The notes under the pieces: model-generated
What the model saw: the letters and a program-made list of their open reading frames with translations, nothing else
The model's database searches: none
What the model was told of the DNA's origin: nothing
IMG/VR virus record: IMGVR_UViG_3300027977_000055
Span: 1 to 47,940 of that record
Length of the DNA stretch: 47,940 bases
From: a virus
Direction: 5' to 3' (one strand)
Position numbers and translations under genes: made by a program
Part shown: one piece after another, positions 10,268 to 39,605 of the stretch
Layout: every line of letters begins with the position of its first letter
Numbering within the stretch: position 1 is the stretch's first letter

Positions 10268-10477
10268 ATGGGATTCACAAAACGATTCGTAGACCAAAAG
10301 AAAGTGAAAGTTCATTTGGAAAATTCCGATTTGAAGACTTTGTTCTCTCCGAGGGTTGATGCTTTTATTTTTATGGATACCTTATCATCTGATGTTTTTA
10401 ATCTATTTCAACAGGGTCATGATGAAACCCAAATCTTTTACACACTTAAAAAACAAAACCAAAATTTATTTCTATGA
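10268..10477 (+). CDS. Small hypothetical protein
   Basis: Not recognised. 69 residues, soluble, starts MGFTKRFVDQKKVKVHLENS and ends with a Gln/Asn-rich tail. Its ATG lies 4 nt after a consensus promoter. The last 4 nt overlap the next start (ATGA), indicating coupling. Confidence 0.65.
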   Translation: MGFTKRFVDQKKVKVHLENSDLKTLFSPRVDAFIFMDTLSSDVFNLFQQGHDETQIFYTLKKQNQNLFL

Positions 10478-25353: not shown

Positions 25354-26088
25354 ATGAAAAGACGATTAGTAGAAGATATTAAGAGACAACAGAAATTAAT
25401 GAATATTGAAGAACAATCATTCTCTTCAGAAAAACGACCTTCATTTTTTGATGTTGAGAAATTCATGAAAGGTAGTTCTACACCACAAGACGCAACATAT
25501 GTTGACACAAATATTATAACTCCTCAAACATCTCCAAGTTCTTTTGAAGAGATTACAAACAAAGTTATTGATAATATAGAAGGTGGTTATTATCACCCTA
25601 AGATGAATCAAAGTGCAATGGGAAAATCAGGTGAAACTATGATGGGTATTGATAGAAGACATGGTGGTGACATTAATACTTCACCTGAGGGAAGAGAATT
25701 TTGGAAGTTAATTGATGATGCCGATGCTAGTTCAAAGTGGAAACACAAATATATGGGTGGTAGTTTAGAACCAAAATTGAAAAGTTTGGTTGCTAAAATG
25801 ATGAAACCATTCTTTTTGAAGAACATGAATAATTATCTTTCACCTGAGGCGAGAAAAATAGTAGAATCAAATCCTAATTTAATGTTTCACTTTGTCTATG
25901 GTACGTGGAACGGACCAGGTTGGTTTAGAAAGTTTGCTATAAAAATAAATGATGCTGTGAAGAAAGGTATTACTGACCCGAACAAGTTAACAGAAATTGC
26001 AATACGTTCAAGAATAGACTCGGGGAATAGTGTAATTGCTCAAAGCGCTAAAAAAATTAACAATATATTAGGTACCAACGTAGCCTAA
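25354..26088 (+). CDS. Lysozyme-like (GH108-type) protein with capsid-targeting-like N-terminus
   Basis: 244 residues. MKRRLVEDIKRQQKLMN at the start shows the shared motif in a divergent form (LVE). From about residue 70: KVIDNIEGGYYHPKM, SGETMMGIDRRHGGDIN, and near 185 FHFVYGTWNGPGWFRKFAIK. This order (E-G-G-Y, then S-G-E-T-x-x-G-I-D, then N-G-P-G) resembles GH108-like N-acetylmuramidases, in which the Glu of EGG is catalytic. Proteins of this exact type are often labelled structural in large phages, as I recall. A virion-borne cell-wall enzyme is the best guess. TATTTATT precedes the start. Confidence 0.65.
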   Translation: MKRRLVEDIKRQQKLMNIEEQSFSSEKRPSFFDVEKFMKGSSTPQDATYVDTNIITPQTSPSSFEEITNKVIDNIEGGYYHPKMNQSAMGKSGETMMGIDRRHGGDINTSPEGREFWKLIDDADASSKWKHKYMGGSLEPKLKSLVAKMMKPFFLKNMNNYLSPEARKIVESNPNLMFHFVYGTWNGPGWFRKFAIKINDAVKKGITDPNKLTEIAIRSRIDSGNSVIAQSAKKINNILGTNVA

Positions 26089-26112
26089 AAAAAAGAAGGG
26101 GACAAAGTCCCC
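26086..26112 (-). terminator. Intrinsic terminator, minus strand, without an assigned gene
   Basis: On the minus strand GGGGAC, loop TTT, GTCCCC is followed by TTC and a run of eight T. On the plus strand the T run is missing, so it does not serve the lysozyme-like gene. Upstream on the minus strand (26113-26200) no clear reading frame exists; CTGGTT/AACCAG can form a stem there, so a small RNA is possible. Confidence 0.6.
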
Positions 26113-26211
26113 CTCAAAAAGTCTGGTTAAACACTAATCAACACTCTTGGACAACCAGCCAACCCTCAAATGATACTACAATCATAAGGGTGGAAATATT
26201 TTTATCAAGTC

Positions 26212-26242
26212 TTTGTAATGTGAAATATTGAAGTTACTTTTG
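26212..26242 (+). promoter_or_regulatory. Sigma-A type promoter, leaderless architecture
   Basis: TTTG at 26212-26215, 19-bp spacer, TACTTTTG at 26235-26242, then 4 nt to ATG 26247. Confidence 0.7.
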
Positions 26243-26246
26243 TGGT

Positions 26247-26336
26247 ATGAAAGTTCACAAAAATTATTGGGGTCTCATCGGATGGTGTGTCTTATTTGTA
26301 TTCATATTCATCGTATCATTAATAGTTCACTCATGA
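26247..26336 (+). CDS. Small single-span membrane protein
   Basis: 29 residues: a short basic/aromatic start (MKVHKNYWGLIGWC) followed by the hydrophobic helix VLFVFIFIVSLIV. Its ATG lies 4 nt after a consensus promoter and its stop overlaps the next start (ATGA), so it is the first gene of a coupled pair with the phosphoesterase. Function unknown. Confidence 0.65.
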   Translation: MKVHKNYWGLIGWCVLFVFIFIVSLIVHS

Positions 26337-26986
26337 AAATCGTTTTAGAAAAAGGTCAGGGTTTGTTTTTTACATCTGACACTCACTATAATCACAATAA
26401 CATTTGTAAGGCAACTACAAATTGGAACGGTGCAGATAACTTGACAAGGGATTTTAAATCACTTGAACATATGAATAGCACGTTGGCTAACAGAATCAAC
26501 GAGATGGTTGGTGAAGATGATATTCTAATTCACTTGGGTGATTGGTCGTTTGGTGGTTTTGAATCTATTGAGGAGTTCCGTAGCCGTATTCTTTGTAAGA
26601 ATGTTCACTTGGTCTTTGGAAACCACGACCACCACATTCGTAGAAACAAGGGTGATATCCAAAGAATATTTTCATCATGTCAAGATTATCTTCACTTGGA
26701 TATTCGCAAACCTGAAGGTAAGGAAGTTATGAAATACTCTATGGTGTGTATGCACTACCCAATAGCTTCTTGGGATGGTATGAACGATGGTGTGGTTCAC
26801 TTACACGGACACGTTCACTTACCACCTAACTTGAGAGTTAACGAAGGTAAAGCAATGGACGTGGGGGTTGATGGTAATGATTTATATCCAATCTCATTTG
26901 AAGAGATTAGGAATATTATGAAAGATAGACCTCGTAAAAAATTGGTGTTACCTAAAGACCACCATGAAAAAAGATTAGAAGTGTAA
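26333..26986 (+). CDS. Calcineurin-like metallophosphoesterase
   Basis: 217 residues from ATG 26333; a longer frame exists but its extra N-terminus covers the small membrane gene. The metal ligands are complete: SDTHYNHNN (D-x-H), GDWSFGG, GNHDHH, MHYP and HGHVH. Small phosphoesterases of this layout are common in phages and act on nucleotides, nucleic-acid ends or phosphoproteins; the substrate is not predictable. The C-terminus is basic. It overlaps the end of a convergent small gene. Confidence 0.9.
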   Translation: MKIVLEKGQGLFFTSDTHYNHNNICKATTNWNGADNLTRDFKSLEHMNSTLANRINEMVGEDDILIHLGDWSFGGFESIEEFRSRILCKNVHLVFGNHDHHIRRNKGDIQRIFSSCQDYLHLDIRKPEGKEVMKYSMVCMHYPIASWDGMNDGVVHLHGHVHLPPNLRVNEGKAMDVGVDGNDLYPISFEEIRNIMKDRPRKKLVLPKDHHEKRLEV

Positions 26987-27148
26987 TTTTATCTTTCTTA
27001 CTTTGTTCTTGAACCAGCGTTTTAGGTAATACCAAAACCTTTTTCTTGGGTTGTTAAAATCTATAAACTCCTTTTCAATCTCAGAATTTTTACCTTTAAC
27101 TTTGTAATAAATTTCGGGATTAATAATTGATTGTTCTTTTTGTTTCAT
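26975..27148 (-). CDS. Small basic hypothetical protein
   Basis: 57 residues, ATG 27148 to TAA 26975. Starts MKQKEQSIINPEIYYKVKG; the C-terminal half is strongly basic and aromatic (NPRKRFWYYLKRWFKNKVRK), like nucleic-acid- or membrane-binding peptides. Overlaps the end of the phosphoesterase gene by 12 nt and is divergent from the kinase gene. No function recognised. Confidence 0.55.
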   Translation of the reverse strand: MKQKEQSIINPEIYYKVKGKNSEIEKEFIDFNNPRKRFWYYLKRWFKNKVRKIKLHF

Positions 27149-27170
27149 ATACTATTATAATATATCTTTG
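27139..27170 (+). promoter_or_regulatory. Sigma-A type promoter, leaderless architecture
   Basis: TTTG at 27139-27142, 20-bp spacer, TATCTTTG at 27163-27170, then 4 nt to ATG 27175. Confidence 0.75.
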
Positions 27171-27174
27171 TTAA

Positions 27175-27582
27175 ATGAAAAATCTATACTTAGTTCGTGG
27201 ATTACCTGGGTCAGGTAAGTCTACATTAGCCCGTGAAATATCAACAGCATTTGTTGAGGCGGATATGTTCTTCTTAAATCATGAAGGGGAATATGTGTTT
27301 GATGGTTCCAAAATTAAAGAAGCTCATGCTTGGTGTAAGGCAACGGTTCGTGAGTGGATGGAAATGAATAACGATACCTACGGGTTAGAATATTCTGATA
27401 TTGCGGTGTCAAACACTTTCACTCAAGAATGGGAGATGGAGGATTATTATCAGTTGGCTAAAGAATATGGTTACCGAGTGTTTTCTTTGGTTGTTGAGAA
27501 CCGACATGGTGGTGTGAATACTCATGGTGTTCCTGAAGAAAAGTTGGAACAGATGAAAAATCGTTTTGAGTTTAAGATTTGA
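27175..27582 (+). CDS. P-loop kinase (AAA_33 / N4BP2-like, possible polynucleotide kinase)
   Basis: 135 residues. Walker A LVRGLPGSGKSTLA at residues 5-18, then EADMFF (Asp contacting Mg) and IKEAHAWCKATVREWM, the order found in small AAA_33 kinases related to N4BP2-like proteins and polynucleotide kinase. The protein is short and has no phosphatase half, although a metallophosphoesterase lies just upstream; the two could act together in nucleic-acid end repair (inference). The following gene starts 1 nt after its stop. Confidence 0.8.
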   Translation: MKNLYLVRGLPGSGKSTLAREISTAFVEADMFFLNHEGEYVFDGSKIKEAHAWCKATVREWMEMNNDTYGLEYSDIAVSNTFTQEWEMEDYYQLAKEYGYRVFSLVVENRHGGVNTHGVPEEKLEQMKNRFEFKI

Positions 27583-27583
27583 T

Positions 27584-28027
27584 ATGGATTGGAAAGAATA
27601 TTTTTTAAACATTGCCGAGTCGGTTAAGTTAAAGTCAAAAGACCAACGAACACAGATTGGTGCGGTTATAGTTGGACAGGACAAAGAGATTGTCTCAACG
27701 GGATTTAATTCATTCCCTCGTGGGATTGATGACAATGTTCAAGAGAGACAGGAACGTCCTGAAAAATATTTTTGGATGGAACATGCCGAAAGAAACGCTC
27801 TTTACAACGCAGCTCGTATTGGTGTATCAACTAAGGGTACTACAATGTATTTGACCTGTGGTATACCTTGTACGGATTGCGCTAAGGGTATTATATCTTC
27901 AGGTGTTAAGTCAATCTATTGTAAAAGAGAAGACACAACTAAGAATAGAGAGTATTGGGATGAACATGCAAAACGTAGTTTGGTGATGTTTCAAGAGGCT
28001 GGTGTTGAAATATTCTACTACGACTAG
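27584..28027 (+). CDS. Deoxycytidylate (dCMP) deaminase family
   Basis: 147 residues from ATG 27584. Zinc site HAERNAL (His, catalytic Glu) and CGIPCTDCA (two Cys) are complete, preceded by RTQIGAVIVGQDKEIVSTGF. The enzyme makes dUMP from dCMP for thymidylate synthesis, a typical phage nucleotide-pool gene. Allosteric residues cannot be assessed. Co-transcribed with the kinase. Confidence 0.92.
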   Translation: MDWKEYFLNIAESVKLKSKDQRTQIGAVIVGQDKEIVSTGFNSFPRGIDDNVQERQERPEKYFWMEHAERNALYNAARIGVSTKGTTMYLTCGIPCTDCAKGIISSGVKSIYCKREDTTKNREYWDEHAKRSLVMFQEAGVEIFYYD

Positions 28028-28063
28028 TTTGATTATTTAAAAAAACTTGATTAACATTGAATT

Positions 28064-28348
28064 ATGAATATGACATTAAATTTAGTTGGATGGTTATTTT
28101 ATCTCATTGGGATGATATGGGGAACCATTCGTGAAAAAAAAGAAAATCAAAAAATTAAGGACGCAACTTCATTTCTTGGTGAAGCAATTAAAACGGGTGA
28201 TACTGAAATTTACGAAGACGCTACGTTTCAATTAAAGAAGGCTCAACTTGACCAAATTGGTCCTTACAGTTCTTACAGTATCAAAACTCATTTCTTTACC
28301 TTAGGTTTAGGTATTTTTATTTCAAATCTTATTCTTATATTTTTATAA
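28064..28348 (+). CDS. Small two-span membrane protein
   Basis: 94 residues. Hydrophobic helices at about residues 5-20 (LNLVGWLFYLIGMIWG) and 76-94 (FTLGLGIFISNLILIFL), joined by a soluble charged loop of about 50 residues (KKENQKIKDATSFLGEAIKT). Not recognised. The following gene starts 2 nt after its stop. Confidence 0.7.
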   Translation: MNMTLNLVGWLFYLIGMIWGTIREKKENQKIKDATSFLGEAIKTGDTEIYEDATFQLKKAQLDQIGPYSSYSIKTHFFTLGLGIFISNLILIFL

Positions 28349-28350
28349 CT

Positions 28351-28788
28351 ATGAACATCAAACAAGCACTAAAACAAAAAAATAAGTTGGTGAAGAAAAC
28401 ATCAGACTTATACAACCGTCTAAATGAGAATAACTCAGTTGAAGAAGGTGCAATCCGTCACTATGACGTTGAAGAAACTCTTACCGAATTGTTAAACAAT
28501 GTTGACGATTTGGTTGAATTAAAAACTAAAATCCACATGGCAAACATGGAGGTTTATAATAAAATTTTTAAGATGTCAGAACTTAAAAGTTTGTTGAAGA
28601 ACCTTCGTGGTTTAGATTGTGGTGAAGGTACGGTAAGAAAAATGCACCGATACAGTGATGAAAGCCCAATGGTAAAAACCACTATTATTGATGTGGTTCG
28701 TCGTAATAACTTGATTGAACTTCTTGAAAGTAATATTGAAAGACTTCAAGATGAATTGGATGTTCACAACGCAACCAAAACAATCTAA
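28351..28788 (+). CDS. DIP1984-like (septicolysin-related) helical protein
   Basis: 145 residues, helical throughout. MNIKQALKQKNKLVKKTSDL, EETLTELLNNVDDLVELKTK and the C-terminal helix LLESNIERLQDELDVHNATK follow the pattern of the DIP1984/septicolysin family, whose function is not settled. Coiled-coil character is strong. The assignment rests on overall pattern, not on a diagnostic site. Confidence 0.6.
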   Translation: MNIKQALKQKNKLVKKTSDLYNRLNENNSVEEGAIRHYDVEETLTELLNNVDDLVELKTKIHMANMEVYNKIFKMSELKSLLKNLRGLDCGEGTVRKMHRYSDESPMVKTTIIDVVRRNNLIELLESNIERLQDELDVHNATKTI

Positions 28789-28961
28789 AGATAGTTGAGT
28801 CCGTCAGAGATTAAATTTTCATCCAGGCTTCGGCTTTACACTAGAAACCATGATATCAGGATTTGATTTTGCTTTTAAAATTCAACCGTCAAGAGATTCA
28901 ACAAGCAAACTTTAACATTTAAAACTCTTTCTGATATTTTTTTTCTGTACGAGACTCACTA

Positions 28962-28990
28962 CCCTCACTCTTTACGAGTGGGGGTTTTTT
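28962..28990 (+). terminator. Intrinsic terminator of the recurrent CCCTCACT family
   Basis: CCCTCACTC, loop TTTAC, GAGTGGGGG, T run: 9-bp stem. First of seven similar terminators in the window. The 173 bases before it (28789-28961) hold no convincing gene; a UUCG-capped 4-bp hairpin near 28826 is the only structure seen. Confidence 0.85.
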
Positions 28991-29004
28991 ATTATGATTA
29001 AAGT

Positions 29005-29160
29005 ATGATATACTTCTTTTACTTGATATTGTTATGTTTTGTTTTGTGTGCAGGACTAATACTTGGTGAGATTATTACCAACAAGATACCAAATAGCTCA
29101 TTTGCTAAATGGTGGAGAAAATATGTTGTATGTGATGATGACTTGGAAGGGTTAGATTAA
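29005..29160 (+). CDS. Small membrane-anchored protein
   Basis: 51 residues. One N-terminal membrane helix (YFFYLILLCFVLCAGLILG), then a conserved-looking juxtamembrane part TNKIPNSSFAKWWRKYVV and an acidic tail. Small phage proteins with a P-N-S-x-F-x-K-W-W-R-K segment occur in T4-like phages, as I remember. It starts right after a terminator and stops exactly where the convergent gene ends. Confidence 0.65.
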   Translation: MIYFFYLILLCFVLCAGLILGEIITNKIPNSSFAKWWRKYVVCDDDLEGLD

Positions 29161-29667
29161 TTAAACCCTTGCGTGAAAATTAATATCGTCATAGACACTT
29201 GGTATTGACCTCATCAACAATTTTTGTTTGTCGGGGTGTAAATCTTTGGGAAATTTTATATTGTAAACTAGTTCGGGTCTAAAATCTTGAAGATAAGGAC
29301 CTGTAATTATAACATTAAGATTTCTACCATTAACAATTCTTCTGAGTCTATCTGTCATAATACCCTGAAGTTCCAAAATTTTATCTTCCATGAATTTGTA
29401 ATTAACGTGTTTGAATATGATTTTATCAAAATCTTCTTCTAAACCAACTAACTCCAATGATTCTATAATTTCGTCTTCAACTTCTTCAAAAAATTTATAA
29501 TAATTAGAATCATAGTTTGGACCCAACATATGAAATTTAGAACTATCAACCTTAAGAGTTAGGTTCAAATTACCCGAAGGTCCTGATTCTCTTATTGAAA
29601 ATGGTATTGAATAGATACTAAAAAAATCTTTCAACACTTTAGTTGCAACTTTAATTTTACTACTCAT
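29161..29667 (-). CDS. Hypothetical protein
   Basis: Not recognised. 168 residues, mixed alpha/beta, no signal peptide. Helical acidic centre (YYKFFEEVEDEIIESLEL) and a C-terminal half with LHPDKQKLLMRS. Its start overlaps the stop of the secreted gene upstream (TAATG), so both are one minus-strand operon. Confidence 0.7.
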   Translation of the reverse strand: MSSKIKVATKVLKDFFSIYSIPFSIRESGPSGNLNLTLKVDSSKFHMLGPNYDSNYYKFFEEVEDEIIESLELVGLEEDFDKIIFKHVNYKFMEDKILELQGIMTDRLRRIVNGRNLNVIITGPYLQDFRPELVYNIKFPKDLHPDKQKLLMRSIPSVYDDINFHARV

Positions 29668-30125
29668 TATTTTAAATACTTTTCACAATCATAATAATTC
29701 AACTTTCTTTGAATGTTATCTATTAAAAATAGGTCAACATCTTTTAGTTTTATTAAAAACTCAAGTTCATAAAGATAACAAACACACTCCTCTTCTTTGC
29801 TATCTAAGGATAATTTTGATAGTTCAATATGTTTTGATTCGTGAACTATTACACAAGCCAAATTTTGGATGTTACCATATCTAACTTCAATGGTTGTGAT
29901 ATAAATTTCATTACCTTCGGTGGTTGAATAGTTACCATTCCAAAAACCAATATGAGTACAATTTTTTATTACTGTGTTGTATACCGTTGTGTCGGTATTT
30001 TTAATTAGTGTTAGTGCCTTATGAACATTATGTTCCCAATTATCGCCAACAACATCTATTTTTATCTGTGCATTAAGAGTTATACAAAAAATTGTAAGTA
30101 GTGTAAAAACAAGTGATTTAATCAT
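29667..30125 (-). CDS. Secreted protein with HExxH motif, putative metallopeptidase
   Basis: 152 residues from ATG 30125; an earlier start exists but would run into the divergent gene and hide the signal peptide. Signal peptide MIKSLVFTLLTIFCITLNAQ with a cleavage site after the Ala-Gln type end usual in flavobacteria. Residues around 105 read CVIVHESKHIEL, a zinc-metallopeptidase HExxH-type motif, with a later cluster EEECVCYLYELEF as a possible third ligand region. Catalysis is unproven. It shares the promoter gap with the divergent T9SS cargo gene. Confidence 0.7.
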   Translation of the reverse strand: MIKSLVFTLLTIFCITLNAQIKIDVVGDNWEHNVHKALTLIKNTDTTVYNTVIKNCTHIGFWNGNYSTTEGNEIYITTIEVRYGNIQNLACVIVHESKHIELSKLSLDSKEEECVCYLYELEFLIKLKDVDLFLIDNIQRKLNYYDCEKYLK

Positions 30126-30134
30126 ATTTATAAT
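30125..30134. promoter_or_regulatory. TATTTATAA motif between divergent secreted-protein genes
   Basis: TATTTATAA at 30125-30133 overlaps the first base of the minus-strand ATG and lies 20 nt before the plus-strand ATG 30154. Same motif and arrangement as at 12763 and 16325. Confidence 0.35.
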
Positions 30135-30153
30135 TACACTAATTAACACTCTT

Positions 30154-32049
30154 ATGAGAAAACTTATGATTGCGATTTTATCGCTAACCATGTTGGTCAC
30201 TGCAAAGGCTCAAACCTGTCCCACACCGACAACAACAGGAGTTCACATCACATTAGACTCGACCTATCAAACAGGTAAATACAGTGATGGTTTCACAAAC
30301 GTAGGGCTCTGTTTCTACAACAGTTCATCAGAGAACATAACAGCGGTTCAATTTAGAATGTTTTACGACAAACAGGCCTTCAGTGGTGTGGATACCGTAA
30401 CATCAACTAACACGAGCTTCTCACAATATCTTCAGTATGTAGACAATCCAACATCTGGTTATGTAACTATTACAATGACCTACACTGGTACTGTTTCAAC
30501 TTTTGATATTCCTGACGGTTCGTTGTTTAATGTTAAATTGAATCACACAACTGCACTTGCAACAACTTACTTTACAATTTCAGATTTGACATTTGTTGGT
30601 TCAAGTAGTTTTTCACAAACAGCGACAAAACAATCAGGTGATGATTACAGTTTGAATCTAACAAACTTTGGTGGTGAATTATTACCTCAAGTATTCTCAT
30701 TCAAAGGGAAGTTTGTGAATGTTACAGGTACGGCAGCAAAGAACATTACGGTAGCTCTTGAAAAGAAACTTAAGACATCTTCAACATGGTCTCAAGTAAC
30801 TTCTCAAGCATCGGGTCTTGATGGTAAATTTGCATTCAATAATGTTGAGGTAGATACCTCAGCTTGGAATGTTAGAATCAAAATCCAAGGTGATACTATG
30901 TCAGTTGGAAATGTTGTAACAACCGCAGATGCTCAGAGAATTAACCAATCTGTTTTGGGTACAAATACAATGACAGGTTTTGATTTCTATTCATCAGATG
31001 TTAACGGTGACAATAAAGTTACAATTTCTGACGTTTATGGTGTTTATGCGAGAGTTGCAGGTAGATTCACCACTTGGGCGAATTCAGTACCTGATGTTAA
31101 GTTCTTCACTCAAAGTGAATACTCATCAATTAATGGTACAACAACCTCTCAACAAACAACATATGCAGGTGTAACTAATTTTACATTTAATATTGTTGCG
31201 GGTCAACCTGACTCAGTTACATACTATGTGTTGGTACCAGGTGACGCTAACGGAACAGGATTCAAAAGAGCTCGTTTGATTCCAATTGAAATTGTTAACC
31301 CAAACAACGCTAACAAACGTATCATTGATGTTACAACTCAATACGACAATAATCTAAAAACCATTGAAGTAAACTTCCCAACCCTTGGTGTTGATGAAGG
31401 TAACTTGGTAAGAGTTCCTGTAAAATTAAAAACATCAGGAATTGACTTAGGAGCGTTACAACTTTCAATGAAATATGACTCTGATTTGTTAGAGTTTGTA
31501 TCACTTCAAAATGAATTGAAATCTTCTTATTGGATTTCTTTCATTAATGTAAACGATAACGAAGTTGAGTGGGGTGGATACGACCCAACAAATAATAGAA
31601 ATTTGGTTAAAGACGGTGAGACTTTATTCACATTAGAATTCCGTTCTAAAATGACTCAGAGTGAATGGAACAAAAGTCCTTTATATGTTACAAGAAAATT
31701 TGCTGGTGACAATGTTGCAACTGATTTAATTATCACACCAACAGATGGTATCTTACAAGTCTTCAAAAGAAACCCTACCGAGTTATCGGGTTTTGAAAAG
31801 ATGAGAGTTTACCCAAACCCAACCATGGGTGAAACCATGATTACATTCAAGATATACGAGAAAGGTTTTGTTACCTTAGGTGTTTACGATATGGGTGGTA
31901 AAAAATGTATTGAAGTATTAAACGGAACATACTCTGTTGGTCAATACTCTACAACTGTAAACTTAGGAATGTTAAGTGCTGGTGAATACATCGCTATTCT
32001 CAGAAAAGACGATGAGTTGTATTCAGAGAGAACTTCAGTAGTTAAGTAA
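30154..32049 (+). CDS. Secreted T9SS cargo with cohesin/dockerin-like modules
   Basis: 631 residues. A signal peptide (MRKLMIAILSLTMLVTAKAQ) is followed by a cohesin-like beta-domain (about 30-175), a beta module (180-270), a dockerin-like calcium loop DVNGDNKVTISDVYGVYARV (about 282-301), a second cohesin-like domain (about 415-540) and a C-terminal sorting domain starting VYPNPTMGETMITF and ending in SAGEYIAILRKDD, the T9SS type A sorting signal (TIGR04183). Such proteins cross the outer membrane through the Por/Spr machinery and are anchored or released. A phage gene with this signal is unusual and implies use of the host T9SS. First gene of the plus-strand secretion island. Confidence 0.85.
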   Translation: MRKLMIAILSLTMLVTAKAQTCPTPTTTGVHITLDSTYQTGKYSDGFTNVGLCFYNSSSENITAVQFRMFYDKQAFSGVDTVTSTNTSFSQYLQYVDNPTSGYVTITMTYTGTVSTFDIPDGSLFNVKLNHTTALATTYFTISDLTFVGSSSFSQTATKQSGDDYSLNLTNFGGELLPQVFSFKGKFVNVTGTAAKNITVALEKKLKTSSTWSQVTSQASGLDGKFAFNNVEVDTSAWNVRIKIQGDTMSVGNVVTTADAQRINQSVLGTNTMTGFDFYSSDVNGDNKVTISDVYGVYARVAGRFTTWANSVPDVKFFTQSEYSSINGTTTSQQTTYAGVTNFTFNIVAGQPDSVTYYVLVPGDANGTGFKRARLIPIEIVNPNNANKRIIDVTTQYDNNLKTIEVNFPTLGVDEGNLVRVPVKLKTSGIDLGALQLSMKYDSDLLEFVSLQNELKSSYWISFINVNDNEVEWGGYDPTNNRNLVKDGETLFTLEFRSKMTQSEWNKSPLYVTRKFAGDNVATDLIITPTDGILQVFKRNPTELSGFEKMRVYPNPTMGETMITFKIYEKGFVTLGVYDMGGKKCIEVLNGTYSVGQYSTTVNLGMLSAGEYIAILRKDDELYSERTSVVK

Positions 32050-32122
32050 AAACTTGGGGTCACAATTTGTGACCTCAATAGCCAAAAAAATTCAAATAAA
32101 CCCTAAATTAAATTTAAATAAA

Positions 32123-32437
32123 ATGTCAGAAGAACAAGAAAATGACGGAACATGGAGTGGTCTTAAGAAGACTATTATCGGGACGATTGCAACAGCAGTC
32201 ACAGCTGGTGGAGCTTATTTCACCACAACACTTTTTGGTGGTGATGAAGAAGAGTCACCAAAAACAGAGCAAGTTGCACCTGCGGCACCTGTGATTAATT
32301 TAAATGTTGACAATTCATCTAAGAACACGAATTCTGGTGGTGGAACAACAACAGTTATCAAAGAAAAGACAGTTGAAAAACCAGCGGCACCTGCTCCTAA
32401 ACAAGAGAAAAGTGAGTCTGAAGATGCACCTTGGTAA
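32123..32437 (+). CDS. Small single-span membrane protein
   Basis: 104 residues from ATG 32123 (an earlier frame start lacks support). MSEEQENDGTWSGLKK is followed by one hydrophobic helix, TIIGTIATAVTAGGAYFTTT, then a long disordered Pro/Ala/Lys/Glu tail (KTVEKPAAPAPKQEKSESED). Overlaps the CsgG-like gene by 14 nt. Role unknown; it may tether or support the exported complex. Confidence 0.65.
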   Translation: MSEEQENDGTWSGLKKTIIGTIATAVTAGGAYFTTTLFGGDEEESPKTEQVAPAAPVINLNVDNSSKNTNSGGGTTTVIKEKTVEKPAAPAPKQEKSESEDAPW

Positions 32438-33152
32438 ACTAATTGTTTTGGGATTAGTATTAGTTGGGTGTGGTACTCCAAAAGAGTGCCATGGTCAACA
32501 AATCGGTTCTGTTAAAACTGAGGAGTATACCGCAAATTTTGAAAAGAAAAAGTCTTTGGAATCACTTCCACCTTATACAGATACAATACAAATCCCAATT
32601 CAAATCTTAAAGATTGGTATTAATGATGAAGTGTATGAAATGTACCCTGAATTAAAAGATGCTCGTGTTGGGATGGGTGTTACAAACATTGTATTGGAAT
32701 ACTTGGAGGAAACAGGAAGATTTGTATTCACAGAAGACAAATTGGAAATCAAAGAAAGAATGGTTCAACAATTCAAAGCTTCCAATAAAGGATTTACCGA
32801 AAACAAAATTGATGGAAAAGGTAAAATCAAATTGGCAAAATACTTTGTTTACATTGAAGTCTATGATTTTTCTGTAGGTGAAGATGAAGTTGTTGAAACA
32901 AGTGGTGTTACAATAAAACAAGTAACTCAGTTAGGACTACAGGTTAGATTTGTGGATGCTGAAACGGGAGAAATTATTACAGGGTCAGGTCAAGGTAGAG
33001 CAATCACAACCAAGACTTCAACGACTTTAGGTGATATTGAAGGACCAACATTTAACAAATCAACTGTGGGTGTATCTACAAAAAAGGCTCTTGAGACTTC
33101 AACTGTAAGAGTAGTTGAAAAACTCATTAAAAAAGGAATGTTAAAAAGTTAA
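32424..33152 (+). CDS. CsgG-like outer-membrane lipoprotein
   Basis: 242 residues from ATG 32424. Lipoprotein signal MHLGKLIVLGLVLVGC with Cys16 as the lipidation site. The body follows CsgG: GMGVTNIVLEYLEETGRFVF, then KLAKYFVYIEVYDFS, LQVRFVDAETGEIITGSGQG and a final helix VRVVEKLIKKGML. CsgG forms a nonameric outer-membrane channel that secretes curli subunits in an unfolded state. Transmembrane strands cannot be verified by eye. With the neighbouring secreted genes it suggests a phage-borne export channel. Confidence 0.75.
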   Translation: MHLGKLIVLGLVLVGCGTPKECHGQQIGSVKTEEYTANFEKKKSLESLPPYTDTIQIPIQILKIGINDEVYEMYPELKDARVGMGVTNIVLEYLEETGRFVFTEDKLEIKERMVQQFKASNKGFTENKIDGKGKIKLAKYFVYIEVYDFSVGEDEVVETSGVTIKQVTQLGLQVRFVDAETGEIITGSGQGRAITTKTSTTLGDIEGPTFNKSTVGVSTKKALETSTVRVVEKLIKKGMLKS

Positions 33153-33153
33153 A

Positions 33154-33495
33154 ATGAAAAAATTATTTAGTACAAGTGATTACGTTAAGGTAGATGATAA
33201 AAACAGATTCTACTACATGTTACAACAAATGCAATCAAACAGATGGAGAATTACTATCGTTGTGTTGTTTTTGTTTTTCTTTATCATTTTAGGTATCAAC
33301 GTTGCAACATTTGCGGGTATTCAAATTCAAGAGAGTTGGAAGGAAATGTTATTAATCTTATTGGGTGCTTTCGTTGGTAATCTAAATAAGGTTGTTGACT
33401 ATTGGTTTAACTCTGAAGATAGAGATAAGATGTTAATTCAGAAAGTGGACGAGGAAGATGGTCAAGTATTATCGGATGTGACGAGTGTTGATTAA
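33154..33495 (+). CDS. Two-span membrane protein
   Basis: 113 residues. Helices at about 32-54 (ITIVVLFLFFFIILGINVAT) and 66-82 (LLILLGAFVGNLNKVVDYWF), then an acidic tail. The second helix with G-A-F-x-G-x-x-x-K-V-x-D-Y-W-F is a pattern I associate with small phage inner-membrane or holin-like proteins. 1-nt gap from the CsgG-like gene and 1-nt overlap with the next. Confidence 0.65.
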   Translation: MKKLFSTSDYVKVDDKNRFYYMLQQMQSNRWRITIVVLFLFFFIILGINVATFAGIQIQESWKEMLLILLGAFVGNLNKVVDYWFNSEDRDKMLIQKVDEEDGQVLSDVTSVD

Positions 33496-34985
33496 TGAAA
33501 AAAATATTAATCATATTATCACTATTATTTTCCTCTAATTTATTTGGACAGGGGTTCACGTATTCGTATGTGGACCCTTGTTCCAAAAAACAAAAAGTAA
33601 TTAATATTACGGGTAACCAAAATGTTACCGTGAACTACCTTGGTTTTATTGGTAGTTTTAGCCAAACAGATTTTGTTAATGGTACTTTTGATAATTGGAT
33701 AACAAGTGTTCAAGTTCAAGGTGCAAATCAACCATGTGATGAGATGATGACACAAACTCAGACAACTCAAAATATGATTATTACTCAAAACATAATAGCA
33801 ACATTGACTTCTATTACTGCGGCATCTACTATGAGTGTATCATCGGTTGGTAACTCAATTAGTAATAGTGTAGATAATGCTTCGTCAAATAACTCTTCGT
33901 CCTCAAGAAGAGGTTCTTCAAACAAACAAAACAATGGAACAAATCAATCAAATAATACATCTTCAGGAACTGTATCGAATGGTTCTACAACTCAAAACGG
34001 AACACCTAACACAACAGGAAACTCAGGAGGTGGTTCAACTAATGGTGGAGGAAATTCGCAACAAGGAGAAACAACTAACCAAAATGGAGGAAACACATCA
34101 AGTTCGGGTAACTCAACTCAAGGTGGAAGTGGACAGACTCAGCCATCTGTAAACAATCCTTCAAATAATAATTCAAGTCAAGGTAATACCCAATCGGGTA
34201 CAAATACAGGTCAAAGTGGGGGTGGTAATACCCAATCGGGTACAAATCCAACTGATAAACCTAAACAAGAGACTACGGGTGGAGGTGTTGGTGGAACAAC
34301 AAACTCTGTTGCAAACGCTGCAGAATCATCATCAGGTAATGGTGGTGGTTCCAAAGTTAGAGTGGGTTCAGTAATTGGTACGGGTGATATCGTTGCGTTA
34401 AGAAGTAATGAAGACGGTTCAAATCAGTTTAAAGGGACTATGTCGGTTACCAAGTCAAATACAAACAATACAAAGGCAAAAGGATTTCTTTTGAACTTCA
34501 CAACAACAATTAATAATACAAACCTTACATTTTACGGGGCGTTTTCTAATAAGAAAAAAACAAACACTTTGATTGTTGCGAACTCATCTATGATTGATTT
34601 TGAAAAAAACCTGTTCAACACATCAACTGCAATGAATTCAAAGAGATTTGGTAAATTAACTATGATGGGTGGACTGAACATGACTGTGGGTGTTTTAGCC
34701 GGTGAAGGGTTTTCAAACTTGTCAGCAATTGGTGGAGGGTTTATGCCATTCAAAGCATCTAAAAAACTTTCAGGGAATATATTAATGTTGGGGGTTTATT
34801 CACCCTTTACAAAGTTCTATGATGGTAAGTGGTGGGATTCAGGAATCTTATTGGTACCGTTCAGTTCTTGGGATTATACAATATCAAAATCATTCAAGTA
34901 CAACGTGAGTATTTCTAGTACTTACCAAGTAAAAGGTAATGTATTAAACTATCAAATATTAACAGGGGCAAAAATTTTATTATGA
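33495..34985 (+). CDS. Secreted protein with Asn/Ser/Gly-rich linker and beta-rich C-terminus
   Basis: 496 residues. Signal peptide MKKILIILSLLFSSNLFGQ. Residues 20-125 are a small beta/helical domain with two Cys. Residues about 125-285 are low-complexity Asn/Ser/Gly/Thr/Gln (NNSSSSRRGSSNKQNNG), which includes repeats of NTQSGTN. The last 210 residues alternate short strands (VGSVIGTGDIVALRS, GFLLNFTTTINNTNLTFYG) and end KGNVLNYQILTGAKILL, like an outer-membrane beta-barrel with a C-terminal hydrophobic strand. Could be a surface amyloid-like or barrel-anchored fibre served by the adjacent CsgG-like channel. Not assigned to a family. Confidence 0.7.
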   Translation: MKKILIILSLLFSSNLFGQGFTYSYVDPCSKKQKVINITGNQNVTVNYLGFIGSFSQTDFVNGTFDNWITSVQVQGANQPCDEMMTQTQTTQNMIITQNIIATLTSITAASTMSVSSVGNSISNSVDNASSNNSSSSRRGSSNKQNNGTNQSNNTSSGTVSNGSTTQNGTPNTTGNSGGGSTNGGGNSQQGETTNQNGGNTSSSGNSTQGGSGQTQPSVNNPSNNNSSQGNTQSGTNTGQSGGGNTQSGTNPTDKPKQETTGGGVGGTTNSVANAAESSSGNGGGSKVRVGSVIGTGDIVALRSNEDGSNQFKGTMSVTKSNTNNTKAKGFLLNFTTTINNTNLTFYGAFSNKKKTNTLIVANSSMIDFEKNLFNTSTAMNSKRFGKLTMMGGLNMTVGVLAGEGFSNLSAIGGGFMPFKASKKLSGNILMLGVYSPFTKFYDGKWWDSGILLVPFSSWDYTISKSFKYNVSISSTYQVKGNVLNYQILTGAKILL

Positions 34986-35434
34986 GAAAACTAATTATAA
35001 CAATAGGTATTATACTAAGTGGTATAAATCTAAACGCACAAGATTGTTACACTGTAACTAAAGTAGAAAATAAAACAGACAATCCTGATTTATCTTCAAA
35101 GAGATTCACCTTTGGTGTTAAACAAATTACCGAAGAATTAGTAAGTCAAAAATATTCATTATGTGAAGATGGTGCACCAATAACTGTTGATATAGTTTCT
35201 ATTGAAGCACCTTCAATTGGTTTTAACATCGGACCATTCATGATTAAAAAGAAAATAACTATCGTAAAGACTAAAATGATTATTGATTCTGTGGTTTACG
35301 AGGGTGAGGGTGATGCTAAATTATCCGTAAAAGCTGGTTTTGCCGAATTAAGAGATGAGAACTTACCTTTCGAGAAATCAGTCTTTGCTACAGCTGTAAA
35401 AAAATCTATTGAAGATGCTTTGAGTAAATTCTAA
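34982..35434 (+). CDS. Small secreted protein of the CsgG cluster
   Basis: 150 residues. Signal peptide MRKLIITIGIILSGINLNAQ, then a compact alpha/beta body (RFTFGVKQITEELVSQKYSL, PSIGFNIGPFMIKKKITIVK, ending in an amphipathic helix FATAVKKSIEDALSKF). The layout resembles small periplasmic assembly factors and it overlaps both neighbours by 4 and 1 nt, so a role as partner of the CsgG-like channel (CsgE/CsgF-like) is possible but not shown by sequence. Confidence 0.65.
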   Translation: MRKLIITIGIILSGINLNAQDCYTVTKVENKTDNPDLSSKRFTFGVKQITEELVSQKYSLCEDGAPITVDIVSIEAPSIGFNIGPFMIKKKITIVKTKMIIDSVVYEGEGDAKLSVKAGFAELRDENLPFEKSVFATAVKKSIEDALSKF

Positions 35435-36594
35435 TGAGAATTTTGTTGTTCATAATGAGTTACTTTATTTTTGGTGATTTGGTATCCCAAAATTTTACTT
35501 ATTCAGGAACAATATACAATGCTGATGAAACAGGTGCAAATAATGTACCTGTCAAATTATACAAAAGGAGCGTCAGTACTACTGGAAACAACAGTACGTC
35601 TGTAAAAGTATATCGGACTCACTTCGGAACAGGTAATACATCTCAATACCAAGCATATCCATCCACAAGAACTGAAATGGATAGGTGTTTCAACACTTCT
35701 TATAGTGCAACTAATCTTTGGTGGAGTGGGACCATGTCAGGGAACGTATCATTGAATTTTGGGCAATATACAAGTCTTACATCTGCCGGAGCAACCGTTC
35801 CGACAAGTGGTGAGTATTATGCTGTTGAGGTAACATTCACTTTTACTCCCCAAGAAACAGGAAGTTATTCTTTTGGAATAACCTCTGATGATGGTTCAGA
35901 TTTATTGTTGGTTAACACTGGTAATATAGTCGAGTGGTACGGTGGTAAAGGATATGGTGTCTACAGATACGGTACCGTTAATTTGACAAAAGGAAATTCA
36001 TATACTTTTATCGCAAGAATGCAAGAGTATGGTGGTGGGGATGGTTTATATTTAGTGTGGAGAAGACCCTCCCAAACAACTCACTCATATCAATCATCAG
36101 AGATTGGTACTCAATCTACTACAACAACAACTTGGGCTTTGGAAGCAACTTCTAATACAAATTCTACCGGTTATTATAGTTTTAACAGAACGAGTGACCC
36201 ATCAAAACAATACTATATTGAAGTTGTCTCACAAACTCCTGTTACAAGTTTGAATAATTCTGACGGGTTAATAATTGGTAATTATGTCTTGAAAAACAAA
36301 TCTGTAAATGGTATTATCTTTCAAACCTACGATTTGAACAATGATGGTAAATTAACAGTTTCGGACCAATTTTTACTTTTTGCTAAAAAATCAGGTCTTA
36401 AATCTACGTGGGGGTCTTTACCTATCTCAAGATTTTTCATTCAGAGTGAATTTGATTCATTGAAAGTGGCAAATTCCAATTTAAGAAATACTTATTCAGG
36501 TGTTGCGACTTATACATCTTCAACCCTAACAAGTGGTGGAAGTTTGAATTTATATTTGATTGCTACAGGATATTATAAACAAGTTACCTATTAA
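35434..36594 (+). CDS. Secreted PA14-domain protein with dockerin-like repeat
   Basis: 386 residues. Short signal peptide (MRILLFIMSYFIFGDLVSQ). A PA14-type beta domain spans about 45-215: PQETGSYSFGITSDDGSDLL and GNSYTFIARMQEYGGGDGLY are its characteristic strands; it usually binds sugars. From about residue 300 DLNNDGKLTVSDQFLLFAKK is a dockerin-like calcium loop, and the last 85 residues are homologous to the middle of the T9SS cargo at 30154 (same W...P...FF.QSE ... TY.GV order). It stops before any sorting domain, so it may not use T9SS itself, or may be a truncated copy. Confidence 0.75.
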   Translation: MRILLFIMSYFIFGDLVSQNFTYSGTIYNADETGANNVPVKLYKRSVSTTGNNSTSVKVYRTHFGTGNTSQYQAYPSTRTEMDRCFNTSYSATNLWWSGTMSGNVSLNFGQYTSLTSAGATVPTSGEYYAVEVTFTFTPQETGSYSFGITSDDGSDLLLVNTGNIVEWYGGKGYGVYRYGTVNLTKGNSYTFIARMQEYGGGDGLYLVWRRPSQTTHSYQSSEIGTQSTTTTTWALEATSNTNSTGYYSFNRTSDPSKQYYIEVVSQTPVTSLNNSDGLIIGNYVLKNKSVNGIIFQTYDLNNDGKLTVSDQFLLFAKKSGLKSTWGSLPISRFFIQSEFDSLKVANSNLRNTYSGVATYTSSTLTSGGSLNLYLIATGYYKQVTY

Positions 36595-36597
36595 AAA

Positions 36598-37185
36598 ATG
36601 AAGAAATTATTTTTATTAATCCCAATATTATTTTTTACATCCTCAATAAATTTAGATGATGTAACATTACAGAAAACAATCTATAAAGTACGATATTCAC
36701 AAGTTTTCGAACAACCTTTGGAATTGACTTATGAGTCATCAAACCGACCTACCAATGTTAACAGAGGGTCTATGGATTTCTACTTAGAACCAAATGTTAA
36801 AACTTCAGACGGCGCAGACTACGTTAATAACATTTATGATAAAGGACATCTTGCACCTGCAGCAACTTTTTCAGATAATGAACAGAACCTTAAAACAACT
36901 TTTTCATATCTTAATTGTGCATTACAAAATCAATACCTCAACAGAGGGGAATGGAGATTACTTGAGGAACAAGAAAGAAAATGGGATGATGCTGAGAAGT
37001 TAACCATCAAGATAAGTGTTGAATTCAAAAATAAAAACACTGTCTTACCAACAGGTGCTACAGTACCAACAGGATTTACCAAACACATATACTTTAACAA
37101 TCAAAGATTTTGGAAATGTTATTACTTCCCAAATGTAAAACCAACTAAAAAGTGGGGTGAACATCAAATTTCTTGTAGTCACTAA
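36598..37185 (+). CDS. Secreted DNA/RNA non-specific endonuclease (NUC1 family)
   Basis: 195 residues. Signal peptide MKKLFLLIPILFFTSSINLD. Catalytic motif YDKGHLAPAATF around residue 80 corresponds to DRGH of the NUC1/Serratia nuclease family (His general base), followed by the metal Asn helix SYLNCALQNQYLNRGEWRLL and EEQERKW. Shorter than typical (about 240-280), and the C-terminal third is reduced. Exported nuclease could degrade extracellular DNA, salvage nucleotides or exclude competing phages. It closes the secretion island. Confidence 0.8.
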   Translation: MKKLFLLIPILFFTSSINLDDVTLQKTIYKVRYSQVFEQPLELTYESSNRPTNVNRGSMDFYLEPNVKTSDGADYVNNIYDKGHLAPAATFSDNEQNLKTTFSYLNCALQNQYLNRGEWRLLEEQERKWDDAEKLTIKISVEFKNKNTVLPTGATVPTGFTKHIYFNNQRFWKCYYFPNVKPTKKWGEHQISCSH

Positions 37186-37196
37186 TATTTAATAGT

Positions 37197-37457
37197 ATGA
37201 AAGTTCGGTTAACGGAATCACAACTTATTGATTTAATTAAGGAGATTGCGGTAAAATCCCCTGAACTCCCACAATCATTTGAATTTAATATGGATATTGA
37301 AAAAAAACCAAACAAACAAATCAAAGTAAATTACATATCAGATAGAATGATTTCTAAGTTCAGAGAGATTAATGGTGTGTATGGTGAGGACTTTACCTTA
37401 GAAGTTCTTGATAGAGTATATGAAATTTTGAGTTCAGAGTTGGGCGGAGAAGAATAG
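37197..37457 (+). CDS. Small protein with capsid-targeting-like N-terminus
   Basis: 86 residues. Starts MKVRLTESQLIDLIKEI, the clearest example of the N-terminal motif shared by eight proteins here (LTE at residues 5-7). The rest is charged and helical (MISKFREINGVYGEDFTLEV). If the T4 analogy holds, cleavage would follow Glu7 and the remaining ~80 residues would be packaged. No known domain. Confidence 0.65.
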   Translation: MKVRLTESQLIDLIKEIAVKSPELPQSFEFNMDIEKKPNKQIKVNYISDRMISKFREINGVYGEDFTLEVLDRVYEILSSELGGEE

Positions 37458-37485
37458 TTTACTATATTTTTAAAAAATATAACCA

Positions 37486-37713
37486 ATGAAAGTTCTGCGA
37501 AAAAAAATTAAGGTATTTGATGGTAAACCCACAAAAAGCGGTGGACACTCCCAATGGTTATCCAAAATTACAAAATTAGATTATCTTACATTGGAATTTG
37601 GTTTGTGGAGGTTTCATTACGACCACTTTTATTATGATGGACAACATCATGCTCTCTATTTGGGATTGGTTAGAATCTTTTGGGGTGGATTCCCATTTAA
37701 AGATGAAGAATAA
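37486..37713 (+). CDS. Small hypothetical protein
   Basis: Not recognised. 75 residues, basic N-terminus (MKVLRKKIKVFDGKPTKSGG) and an aromatic, glycine-rich second half (RFHYDHFYYDGQHHALYLGL). No Cys pairs, no membrane helix of normal length. Followed by a terminator. Confidence 0.6.
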   Translation: MKVLRKKIKVFDGKPTKSGGHSQWLSKITKLDYLTLEFGLWRFHYDHFYYDGQHHALYLGLVRIFWGGFPFKDEE

Positions 37714-37720
37714 TTTGAAC

Positions 37721-37748
37721 ACTCACTTGTAAGTGGGGTTTTTTTATT
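37721..37748 (+). terminator. Intrinsic terminator of the recurrent family
   Basis: CTCACTT, 2-nt loop, AAGTGGG, then seven T. It overlaps the -33 region of the promoter for 37762. Confidence 0.75.
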
Positions 37749-37757
37749 TTAAATTTG
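37726..37757 (+). promoter_or_regulatory. Sigma-A type promoter, leaderless architecture (weak -33)
   Basis: TAAATTTG at 37750-37757 lies 4 nt before ATG 37762. CTTG at 37726-37729 is the nearest -33 match (one mismatch, 20-bp spacer) and lies within the terminator stem. Confidence 0.5.
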
Positions 37758-37761
37758 TTGT

Positions 37762-37995
37762 ATGGAAAAACGTTCAACCAAAACCCTTGATGTGAATACA
37801 TGGATAAAAAAAGTAATTCGTAGTTGTGAGACTATACAACAACTTCATACTGCCAGACAACTTAAGAATAATTTTTTGAGAAGTTTGGATACCGATAAAA
37901 GTACTGATAGAGAATTATACCGTTTGGTTGATAATGACTTGACAGTTACCTTCCATACCAAATTTCGTGAATTGGTTGATGGTCAATCCAAATAA
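37762..37995 (+). CDS. Small hypothetical protein
   Basis: Not recognised. 77 residues, basic and helical (TIQQLHTARQLKNNFLRSL). Its last 13 nt overlap the sigma-factor-like remnant on the opposite strand. Leaderless-type promoter upstream. Confidence 0.6.
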   Translation: MEKRSTKTLDVNTWIKKVIRSCETIQQLHTARQLKNNFLRSLDTDKSTDRELYRLVDNDLTVTFHTKFRELVDGQSK

Positions 37996-38096
37996 CCCTC
38001 AAGTGATTTTTTCAAAGCAGATTTTGCTTTACTGATTTGTGAACGAGATGTTCCTGGGTCAATCCCTAAGACACTGGCAACTTCACTTATTGGTAA
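37983..38096 (-). pseudogene. Sigma-70 region 4-like remnant (no start codon)
   Basis: On the minus strand a 37-codon frame ending in TGA at 37983 reads LPISEVASVLGIDPGTSRSQ then ISKAKSALKKSLEGYLD. This is a helix-turn-helix like region 4 of ECF-type sigma factors (xEIAxxLGIxxGTSxSxLxxAxxxLxxxL). No ATG/GTG/TTG precedes it in frame before it runs into a terminator sequence, and no region 2 is present. Probably the tail of a lost regulator captured from the host. Confidence 0.5.
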
Positions 38097-38100
38097 AAAT

Positions 38101-38130
38101 AAAAGGGGAGTAGCGAATTCCCCTTTTTTT
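38101..38130 (+). terminator. Intrinsic terminator
   Basis: AAAAGGGGAG, loop TAGCGAA, TTCCCCTTTT with three more T. The stem is nearly symmetric, so it could also act on the minus strand. Confidence 0.75.
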
Positions 38131-38159
38131 GTTACCGAAAACGATAACGGTCCTAATTG

Positions 38160-38195
38160 CCCTGAAACAGGGGGCTTGAAACAACATTTGTTTCA
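38160..38195 (+). other. Two adjacent hairpins upstream of 38224
   Basis: CCCTG-AAA-CAGGG at 38160-38172 and TGAAACAA-CAT-TTGTTTCA at 38177-38195. Neither is followed by a T run. They lie in the leader region of the gene at 38224 and may stabilise or regulate its mRNA. Confidence 0.45.
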
Positions 38196-38223
38196 TAATA
38201 TAAATATCACGATATTTAAAGTT

Positions 38224-38589
38224 ATGAAGTATGTTATCACTCAAAGTCAATTTCATAAGTTAGTTTATGGTTACCTGAACAAATTGGTTAAGTCTGCCGA
38301 AGTTGTTAGAGAAGAAAGTAGATATGTAGAAGGTGGTTTTAGTGTGACTGTAGATACCAATGGTCAACGACGATTCACTTATCAATTCACACCTGAAGGT
38401 GAAAGCTGGGATGACCCTACGGACAAAATTTATCCTGATAACGGTACACTTATAATTAAAAATGGTATTACTGACGATATGAAAGATTTGTTTGGACTTA
38501 GAAAAAGTAAGTTATTTGATTTAATTGCGGATTGGTTTACGGAGACATACAAAGTTGATGTGGACAGTGTATCGGAAAGCTCATATTAA
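38224..38589 (+). CDS. Protein with capsid-targeting-like N-terminus
   Basis: 121 residues from ATG 38224; an upstream frame start crosses the hairpins and is not used. N-terminus MKYVITQSQFHKLVYGYL is the shared motif with Gln in place of Glu (ITQ). It is similar at the start to the minus-strand protein at 42793-43197 (MKYIITESSLDKVIFRYL). The rest is acidic alpha/beta. The start is preceded by TATAAATATCACGATATTTAAAG-like A+T-rich sequence. No known domain. Confidence 0.65.
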   Translation: MKYVITQSQFHKLVYGYLNKLVKSAEVVREESRYVEGGFSVTVDTNGQRRFTYQFTPEGESWDDPTDKIYPDNGTLIIKNGITDDMKDLFGLRKSKLFDLIADWFTETYKVDVDSVSESSY

Positions 38590-38597
38590 ATTTAAAA

Positions 38598-38623
38598 CCC
38601 TCAATGAAAATTGGGGGTTTTTT
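38598..38623 (+). terminator. Intrinsic terminator of the recurrent family
   Basis: CCCTCAAT, loop GAAA, ATTGGGGG, six T. Confidence 0.85.
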
Positions 38624-38672
38624 GTTGTAAGTAATTATTTAAATGTAAAAATTTATTTTTATATTTAAAAAT

Positions 38673-39404
38673 ATGTTGAGCGATAGTTTTTATAATAATT
38701 TTGAATCCTATAAAAATATTTACAATAATCAGAGTCCCTATCCTCATGTTGTTATTGATAATTTTCTAAGAGATGATGTTTATAATGCGTTGATGAACGA
38801 GGTTAATCAATTATCAAAAAAACCTGATTCATTTTTTATTAACAATGTTTATGGTATTATAGATGAGCATGATAGTCAAAGGGGTAAAAGACAAGTTGAT
38901 GGAATAGAAAAAATGGATTTAAAAATGGTTGAGGTGATTAAATTTCTTAATTCTAAATATTTTTTGGGTTTGGTAAAAGATATGACAGGATTTAAAGAAT
39001 TACAATCAATTGAAAATTATAGTAACTCAGGATACCATCAAACTCACCGTGGAGGTTTTTTGGATGTTCATCATGATTTTAATTTATCTCATCATGATTC
39101 TACTTTGTTTCGTCAAATCAATTTTTTACTTTACCTTAATAAAAATTGGGAATCTGAATGGGGTGGTGATTTAGAATTATGGGACAAAGACATGTCAGGA
39201 CCTGTCAAATTAATATCTCCAATTGGTAATCGTGTTGTAATGTTTAACATTGATAGGGCGCCTCACGGACATCCTAACCCACTAAACTGTCCTGAAAATG
39301 AGTACAGAAAAAGTTTTGCATTATATTATTATAATAGGGAAAACCCAAAATATAATCTTGTTAACAGGGCCATTTGGAAAAATGAAATTGATACATTAAC
39401 ATAA
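38673..39404 (+). CDS. 2OG-Fe(II) oxygenase
   Basis: 243 residues. Double-stranded beta-helix of the prolyl-hydroxylase-like class: FLDVHHDF supplies the HxD iron ligands (about residues 132-136), GNRVVMFNIDRAPHGHPNPL the distal His, and YRKSFALYYYNRE the 2-oxoglutarate-binding Arg region. Phage members may hydroxylate proteins, nucleotides or sugars; none is indicated here. The N-terminal PYPHVVIDNFLRDDVYNALM is the usual lid. Single gene between two A+T-rich gaps. Confidence 0.85.
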   Translation: MLSDSFYNNFESYKNIYNNQSPYPHVVIDNFLRDDVYNALMNEVNQLSKKPDSFFINNVYGIIDEHDSQRGKRQVDGIEKMDLKMVEVIKFLNSKYFLGLVKDMTGFKELQSIENYSNSGYHQTHRGGFLDVHHDFNLSHHDSTLFRQINFLLYLNKNWESEWGGDLELWDKDMSGPVKLISPIGNRVVMFNIDRAPHGHPNPLNCPENEYRKSFALYYYNRENPKYNLVNRAIWKNEIDTLT

Positions 39405-39431
39405 ATCTCATGAATATAATATTTAAATGTC

Positions 39432-39605
39432 ATGAGAGACGCGTATTCAATAATCGGGAAAGAAGTTTACTACAAAGAAAAAACTTGGACGGTGAAAGAT
39501 TTTTTCTATGTTCCAAATAATGCAAACATTTACGTTGGGTTAAGAAGTGGGGGTATTACCCTCAATGTTATTCTTGATGATGTGATGAGTTTGCTAATTC
39601 AGTAA
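39432..39605 (+). CDS. Small hypothetical protein
   Basis: 57 residues, ATG 39432 to TAA 39605. MRDAYSIIGKEVYYKEKTWT continues with a beta-like middle and a helical end (ITLNVILDDVMSLLIQ). Compact SH3-like pattern, not recognised. TATTTAAATG lies just upstream. Confidence 0.5.
   Translation: MRDAYSIIGKEVYYKEKTWTVKDFFYVPNNANIYVGLRSGGITLNVILDDVMSLLIQ

Follow-up and report, generated by a model that had tools for sequence, protein, structure and literature searches.

Among described phage systems, the nearest precedent for the locus analysed here is Cryophage, in which Bacteroidetes phage genes carry T9SS type A tails and for which superinfection exclusion was proposed; its cargo comprises three separate variable genes coding for an endoglucanase, a GH39 protein and a PA14 protein (PMC7468147). 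Cryophage is the only case of phage T9SS cargo in the literature that we searched. The present locus resembles this cargo in having a T9SS type A tail, in its PA14 domain and its variation between relatives, and differs in having a cohesin scaffold, a CsgG-like protein, a barrel, a holin slot and an endolysin-linked operon, none of which is described for Cryophage (PMC7468147). The first-pass annotation of this DNA knew of no described phage system of such composition; we likewise found no paper with this composition, although phage T9SS cargo itself has its precedent in Cryophage (PMC7468147). In the literature searched, which covered few subscription journals, we met neither the module as a whole, nor its confinement to phages, nor its connection with lysis genes.

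One protein of the locus (e, below) shares the CsgG fold of the curli channel, as judged by structure comparison, but unlike curli CsgG it comes without a conserved lipoprotein signal or recognised curli partners, and with a second family member (h) alongside. As in the lambda Rz/Rz1 spanin cassette, a holin-slot gene and an endolysin occur beside inner-membrane and outer-envelope genes; however, there is no Rz-family match, and the outer part is a multi-gene set of CsgG-like, barrel and T9SS scaffold genes. Cohesin and dockerin-like domains, together with a dockerin-like end that stays constant while its carbohydrate-binding modules are exchanged, recall the scaffoldins and dockerins of the cellulosome, in contrast to which the module is phage-borne and has few cohesins, a T9SS tail, no cellulases and a pairing that is predicted. 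Phage T5 makes Llp, a single lipoprotein masking the receptor on infected cells and debris; a similar masking role is one of two proposed here, whereas Llp has no secretion system and no known sequence relation to these proteins. The parts of the locus are new members of known folds, and the assembled system fits no known kind.

The window, by which we mean the whole stretch of DNA analysed, is a 47,940-base IMG/VR virus record and a piece of a larger phage genome, with collagen-like tail fibres of the S74 type encoded at one end and, among other phage-type genes, a DNA methyltransferase and glycosyltransferases. Two very long ORFs at 3-6546 have a G+C content of 53%, against 34% elsewhere, and the second of them (3250-6546) encodes a tail fibre of collagen repeats that ends in an S74 chaperone. 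At 21467-24960, a UDP-galactopyranose mutase (phrog_9677) and two glycosyltransferases possibly serve phage-made sugar decoration; at 44756-45583 the phage encodes a beta-keto acid cleavage enzyme (BKACE), which is uncommon for a phage, and on the minus strand at 18752-19528 a protein with a DnaJ-type CXXCXGXG zinc domain, just under the cut-off. The island itself spans 29667-37185 and consists of genes b to j, where the ORFs, signal peptides and tight packing noticed in the first-pass annotation were all recovered:

b, 29667..30125, minus strand: secreted zincin-like protein of 152 aa with HExxH and a downstream E, from an alignment of 25 homologues
c, 30154..32049, plus strand: T9SS-type scaffold with signal peptide, cohesin-like and dockerin-like domains and a C-terminal type A sorting tail
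d, 32123..32437, plus strand: inner-membrane protein of ~104 aa with a weak single TM segment
e, 32424..33152, plus strand: CsgG-fold periplasmic or outer-membrane protein, from AlphaFold and Foldseek
f, 33154..33495, plus strand: membrane protein of 113 aa in the holin slot
g, 33495..34985, plus strand: signal peptide, N-terminal domain, linker and a predicted C-terminal 12-strand outer-membrane beta-barrel
h, 34982..35434, plus strand: secreted protein of 150 aa, a relative of e by hhalign
i, 35434..36594, plus strand: secreted, glycan-binding-type protein with a PA14 tip and a dockerin-like C-terminal domain
j, 36598..37185, plus strand: secreted DNA/RNA non-specific endonuclease (NUC1), accessory

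Most of these genes overlap their neighbours, the gaps being about 73 nt (c-d), -14 (d-e), 1 (e-f), -1 (f-g), -4 (g-h), -1 (h-i) and 3 nt (i-j), while b and c are divergently oriented with 28 nt between them. The true starts are probably 32424 for e and 32123 for d. A promoter scan was uninformative, as its count equalled that of shuffled sequences.

A neighbourhood search in other Bacteroidetes phages, suggested in the first-pass annotation, revealed that hundreds of large phage contigs, the largest of 373 kb, share a block of about eight genes. IMG/VR stretches encoding relatives number at least 487 for e, 329 for c and 318 for f. Among 50,697 phage records, e, h and c occur only in the group of Flavobacterium phage immuto, a cultured phage (NC_055915, source of loci L082 and L083) whose single block contains the three alongside NUC1 and a gene for a C-type lectin; f had no match in this group. 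Among 84,980 cellular species, only two loci were found, L084 and L085, both on phage-like contigs of metagenome bins. The two contigs come from public MAGs that bear the labels Bacteroidetes and Sphingomonadaceae; they carry the island together with phage genes and are probably misbinned. The distribution across phage records, IMG/VR and cellular species is indicative that the module belongs to phages. It also bears on the concern, raised at the outset, that host T9SS genes had been fused to phage DNA at about 29-37 kb. The domains are indeed those typical of Bacteroidetes secreted proteins; nevertheless, two independent assemblies match the window at 99.7-99.8% identity over 26001-39500, the block recurs in the complete genome of a cultured phage and in hundreds of contigs, and the only cellular matches are the two phage-like contigs. 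We therefore rejected a chimera with host DNA, the probability of which we regard as negligible.

Conservation was estimated in 79 non-redundant loci (<95% identity in e, which served as the anchor). Genes e and g were present in all 79, c and d in 78, h in 72, f in 59, b in 56 and j in 18; i was counted in 63, with long i variants having been labelled c and some contigs ending early. The core is likewise kept in 31 representatives. Almost always, the genes overlap on a single strand in the order c-d-(f)-e-g-i/h. When the window was compared with locus L006, the surface-facing proteins proved to be the fastest evolving (identity of 38% in i, 68% in b and 88% in c) and d, e and f the slowest (96-99%).

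The T9SS type A sorting domain claimed for c was borne out, since Por_Secre_tail scored over the Pfam cut-off in the window (30154-32049; E 2e-6) and in 28/28 homologues. The cohesin and dockerin HMMs that had been suggested for searching matched c homologues (Cohesin 24/28, Dockerin_1 11/28) but not the window's own c, in which Cohesin was unmatched and Dockerin_1 fell below the Pfam cut-off; the c profile matches solved cohesin, dockerin and T9SS-tail chains. Its N-terminus, as read in the sequence, has a hydrophobic core and an AQ site and qualifies as a Sec signal peptide, and with few exceptions its homologues are about 630-640 aa long. A single T9SS tail, that of c, is encoded in all 17 phage records examined, the longest of 271 kb; in the L084 contig, which is part of a bacterial MAG, another such tail occurs in addition to that of c. 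Because the tail is conserved, the host T9SS likely exports c to the cell surface.

In i, the PA14 domain named in the first-pass annotation was also over the Pfam cut-off (35434-36594; E 1e-5). It is one of several front domains, which among 30 i proteins were C-type lectin in 21, LamG in 10 (some having both), PA14 in 2 and GEVED in 1. The dockerin-like C-terminal end is constant and shares homology with the central part of c (hhalign probability 99.9), and the Dockerin_1 HMM matches 5/30 i proteins. Between the window and L006, both flanks are 82-88% identical and identity is lost over the i tip, with the break near 35406-36331; by sequence comparison, the tip is a cleanly exchanged binding part on a constant dockerin-like end. 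Protein i starts with a signal peptide and lacks a T9SS tail. It probably docks on c and may cross the outer membrane either riding with c or via g/e, even though cohesin/dockerin-like domains are common in Bacteroidetes proteins and the c-i pairing need not follow. Diversification of the i lectin by a DGR was rejected, as reverse transcriptase (PF00078) was found in 0/18 records, and so was a lectin shared with tail fibres, Lectin_C occurring at most once per record and at the island where checked. In immuto (NC_055915, 139892-142416), three LamG domains lie in or near annotated structural genes, LamG being also found in i elsewhere.

The secreted NUC1 nuclease was confirmed as well, with Endonuclease_NS over the Pfam cut-off in j (36598-37185; E 8e-20). 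Its presence in just 18/79 loci is indicative that DNA scavenging, as first suggested, is not a core role, and a nuclease as core effector was rejected on the same count. In b, H95, E96, H99 and E113 (HExxH plus the downstream E) are invariant across 25 homologues; Pfam and solved-structure profile searches gave no support.

On the envelope side, d has a cytoplasmic N-terminus, a weak single TM segment and a Pro/Glu/Lys-rich arm, and ends in a Trp that is invariant in 27/27 homologues. Against Pfam CsgG, e (as the 32304-33152 ORF) scored 19.1 bits, just below the cut-off of 20.8 (E 8.5e-4). Its AlphaFold model (pLDDT 72), a monomer with long strands at 140-158, 161-178 and 184-199 and polar tips, found CsgG as the best PDB match in Foldseek (E 9.5e-9, probability 1.00, with a TM-score of only 0.4-0.5), followed by PelC, GNA1162 and other outer-membrane-associated proteins of the same fold. 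A CsgG fold of e is thus supported by modelling. A lipobox in e is not conserved, a simple pattern search finding a lipobox-like motif in 5/31 homologues, and CsgA, CsgB, CsgE and CsgF were not among the Pfam, PHROG and NCBIfam matches of the island genes; of the proposed CsgG-like channel, the fold is supported and the pore is putative. Reciprocal HMM matches and hhalign with e (probability 97.2, E 3e-11) identify h as a second, shorter CsgG-like protein; a weak match of the h profile to ribosomal protein S1 was taken as chance. The structure prediction for g (33495-34985) agrees with its earlier description as barrel-like: a long, disordered Ser/Asn/Gly-rich linker of about 170 residues precedes a barrel whose 12 strands span 292-494; its Foldseek matches to NanC, KdgM, NalP and FapF are weak and generic to small barrels. 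Searches of solved structures with the e, g and b profiles returned nothing useful.

Many holins belong to no family. Protein f, which is 70-80% identical across most homologues, has one strong TM segment and a second, weaker hydrophobic segment; neither f nor its replacement falls in an annotated holin family, the PHROG and Pfam matches of f being weak or to unknowns. In 11 loci the f slot is held by an unrelated two-TM (two-helix) family, in the orders e-x-g and d-x-e, the swap requiring 6 changes on the e tree, and the same two-TM family stands 2-23 nt before the GH19 endolysin described below in 23 loci, near-copies counted. Outside the module, 7 loci (L174-L176, L180, L182, L184 and L188) have f immediately downstream of a YkuD-motif gene, conceivably as a minimal lysis pair. 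Owing to the slot replacement, the endolysin pairing of the replacing family and the lone f behind a YkuD-motif gene, f reads as a holin or holin-like protein. In L196 and L209 (about 8850-10525), from other phages, the genes preceding f code for a response-regulator receiver-like protein and a coiled-coil protein.

When neighbouring genes were clustered, the commonest was a GH19 endolysin, assigned to the PHROG lysis family phrog_181 (E 3.5e-69). In 42/79 loci a peptidoglycan-hydrolase gene lies at most 700 nt away in the same orientation (9 upstream and 33 downstream), a class that is mostly GH19 plus an M15-like or YkuD-motif protein, the YkuD and M15 calls being sequence motifs read by eye and YkuD having no Pfam support. 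At L077/L064 the M15-like peptidase takes the endolysin position. Adjacency changes state 18 times on the tree of e, which is indicative of an association that has repeatedly arisen, shifted position or disappeared. As GH19-bearing records have one match each, in genomes of 100-370 kb, we estimate chance adjacency at about one percent, for loci that are not independent. In the window and its near relatives the island has no recognised endolysin next to it, and the GH19 gene of immuto is about 27 kb from the island; physical linkage is therefore common but not needed. The Rz-type spanin family Phage_lysis (PF03245) was found in 0/19 records in a search confined to the Rz family.

Gene content, conservation, domains, linkage and slot replacement were all observed, and we give roughly even credence to the reading that the block is a late, lysis-coupled outer-envelope module of large Bacteroidetes phages, its action being placed at lysis by the linkage to holin-like and endolysin genes. 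What we infer concerns its export, assembly, timing and function. The host T9SS would carry c, the cohesin/dockerin scaffold, to the cell surface, where i would bind it through the dockerin-like domain that bears an exchangeable lectin or PA14 tip. The CsgG-fold proteins e and h, the outer-membrane barrel g and the inner-membrane protein d would make up the envelope side, with f in the holin slot and a peptidoglycan-degrading enzyme often encoded beside the module. Holin and endolysin would handle the inner membrane and wall, and the remaining parts would act at release on the outer membrane and surface coat, either opening them, as spanins do elsewhere, or hiding surface glycans and thereby keeping progeny from re-binding debris. 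The stronger proposal of a third kind of machinery for leaving through the outer membrane, distinct from both spanins and disruptins, in which a phage-encoded CsgG-like ring, the barrel and the host-T9SS-exported scaffold breach the coated outer membrane of Bacteroidetes at lysis, is rather unlikely in our view.

The endolysin adjacency may, however, be merely shared late transcription. A lysis-independent surface display for superinfection exclusion or adhesion, in which T9SS-borne c carries i, i covers receptors or binds particles, e, g and h aid export and the endolysin is incidental, is a doubtful but serious candidate. It would account for the universal T9SS tail of c, the hypervariable i tip swapped whole between otherwise similar relatives, the lectin domains of most i proteins and the greater divergence of c, b and i than of d, e and f; yet the repeated, independently placed endolysin linkage and the holin-type slot within the operon argue against it, and four or five membrane or periplasmic genes exceed the needs of display by the host T9SS. 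Improbable in our estimation is a Curli- or Fap-like fibre secretion system, with e/h as a CsgG-like channel, g as a FapF-like barrel and i or another small substrate as cargo. CsgG is the best match of the e model, g combines a barrel with a disordered linker and has FapF among its weak matches, and i has a signal peptide without a T9SS tail, whereas the lipobox is poorly conserved, no CsgE/CsgF partner or amyloid subunit was recognised and the similarity of g is generic. The wider suggestion of the first-pass annotation, that the phage directs the infected cell to display or release proteins, is upheld insofar as the phage encodes an envelope/secretion module with a T9SS tail, a CsgG fold and a predicted outer-membrane barrel, but not for the nuclease, which is accessory.

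To our knowledge, little has been described of how Bacteroidetes phages exit through a T9SS-decorated outer membrane. Given a widespread module that borrows the host T9SS and accompanies the endolysin, the question becomes testable in a cultured pair, immuto and Flavobacterium sp. LMO8. We know of no earlier phage-encoded cohesin/dockerin display with swappable sugar-binding tips and, if the proposed pairing is true, the module would be the first.
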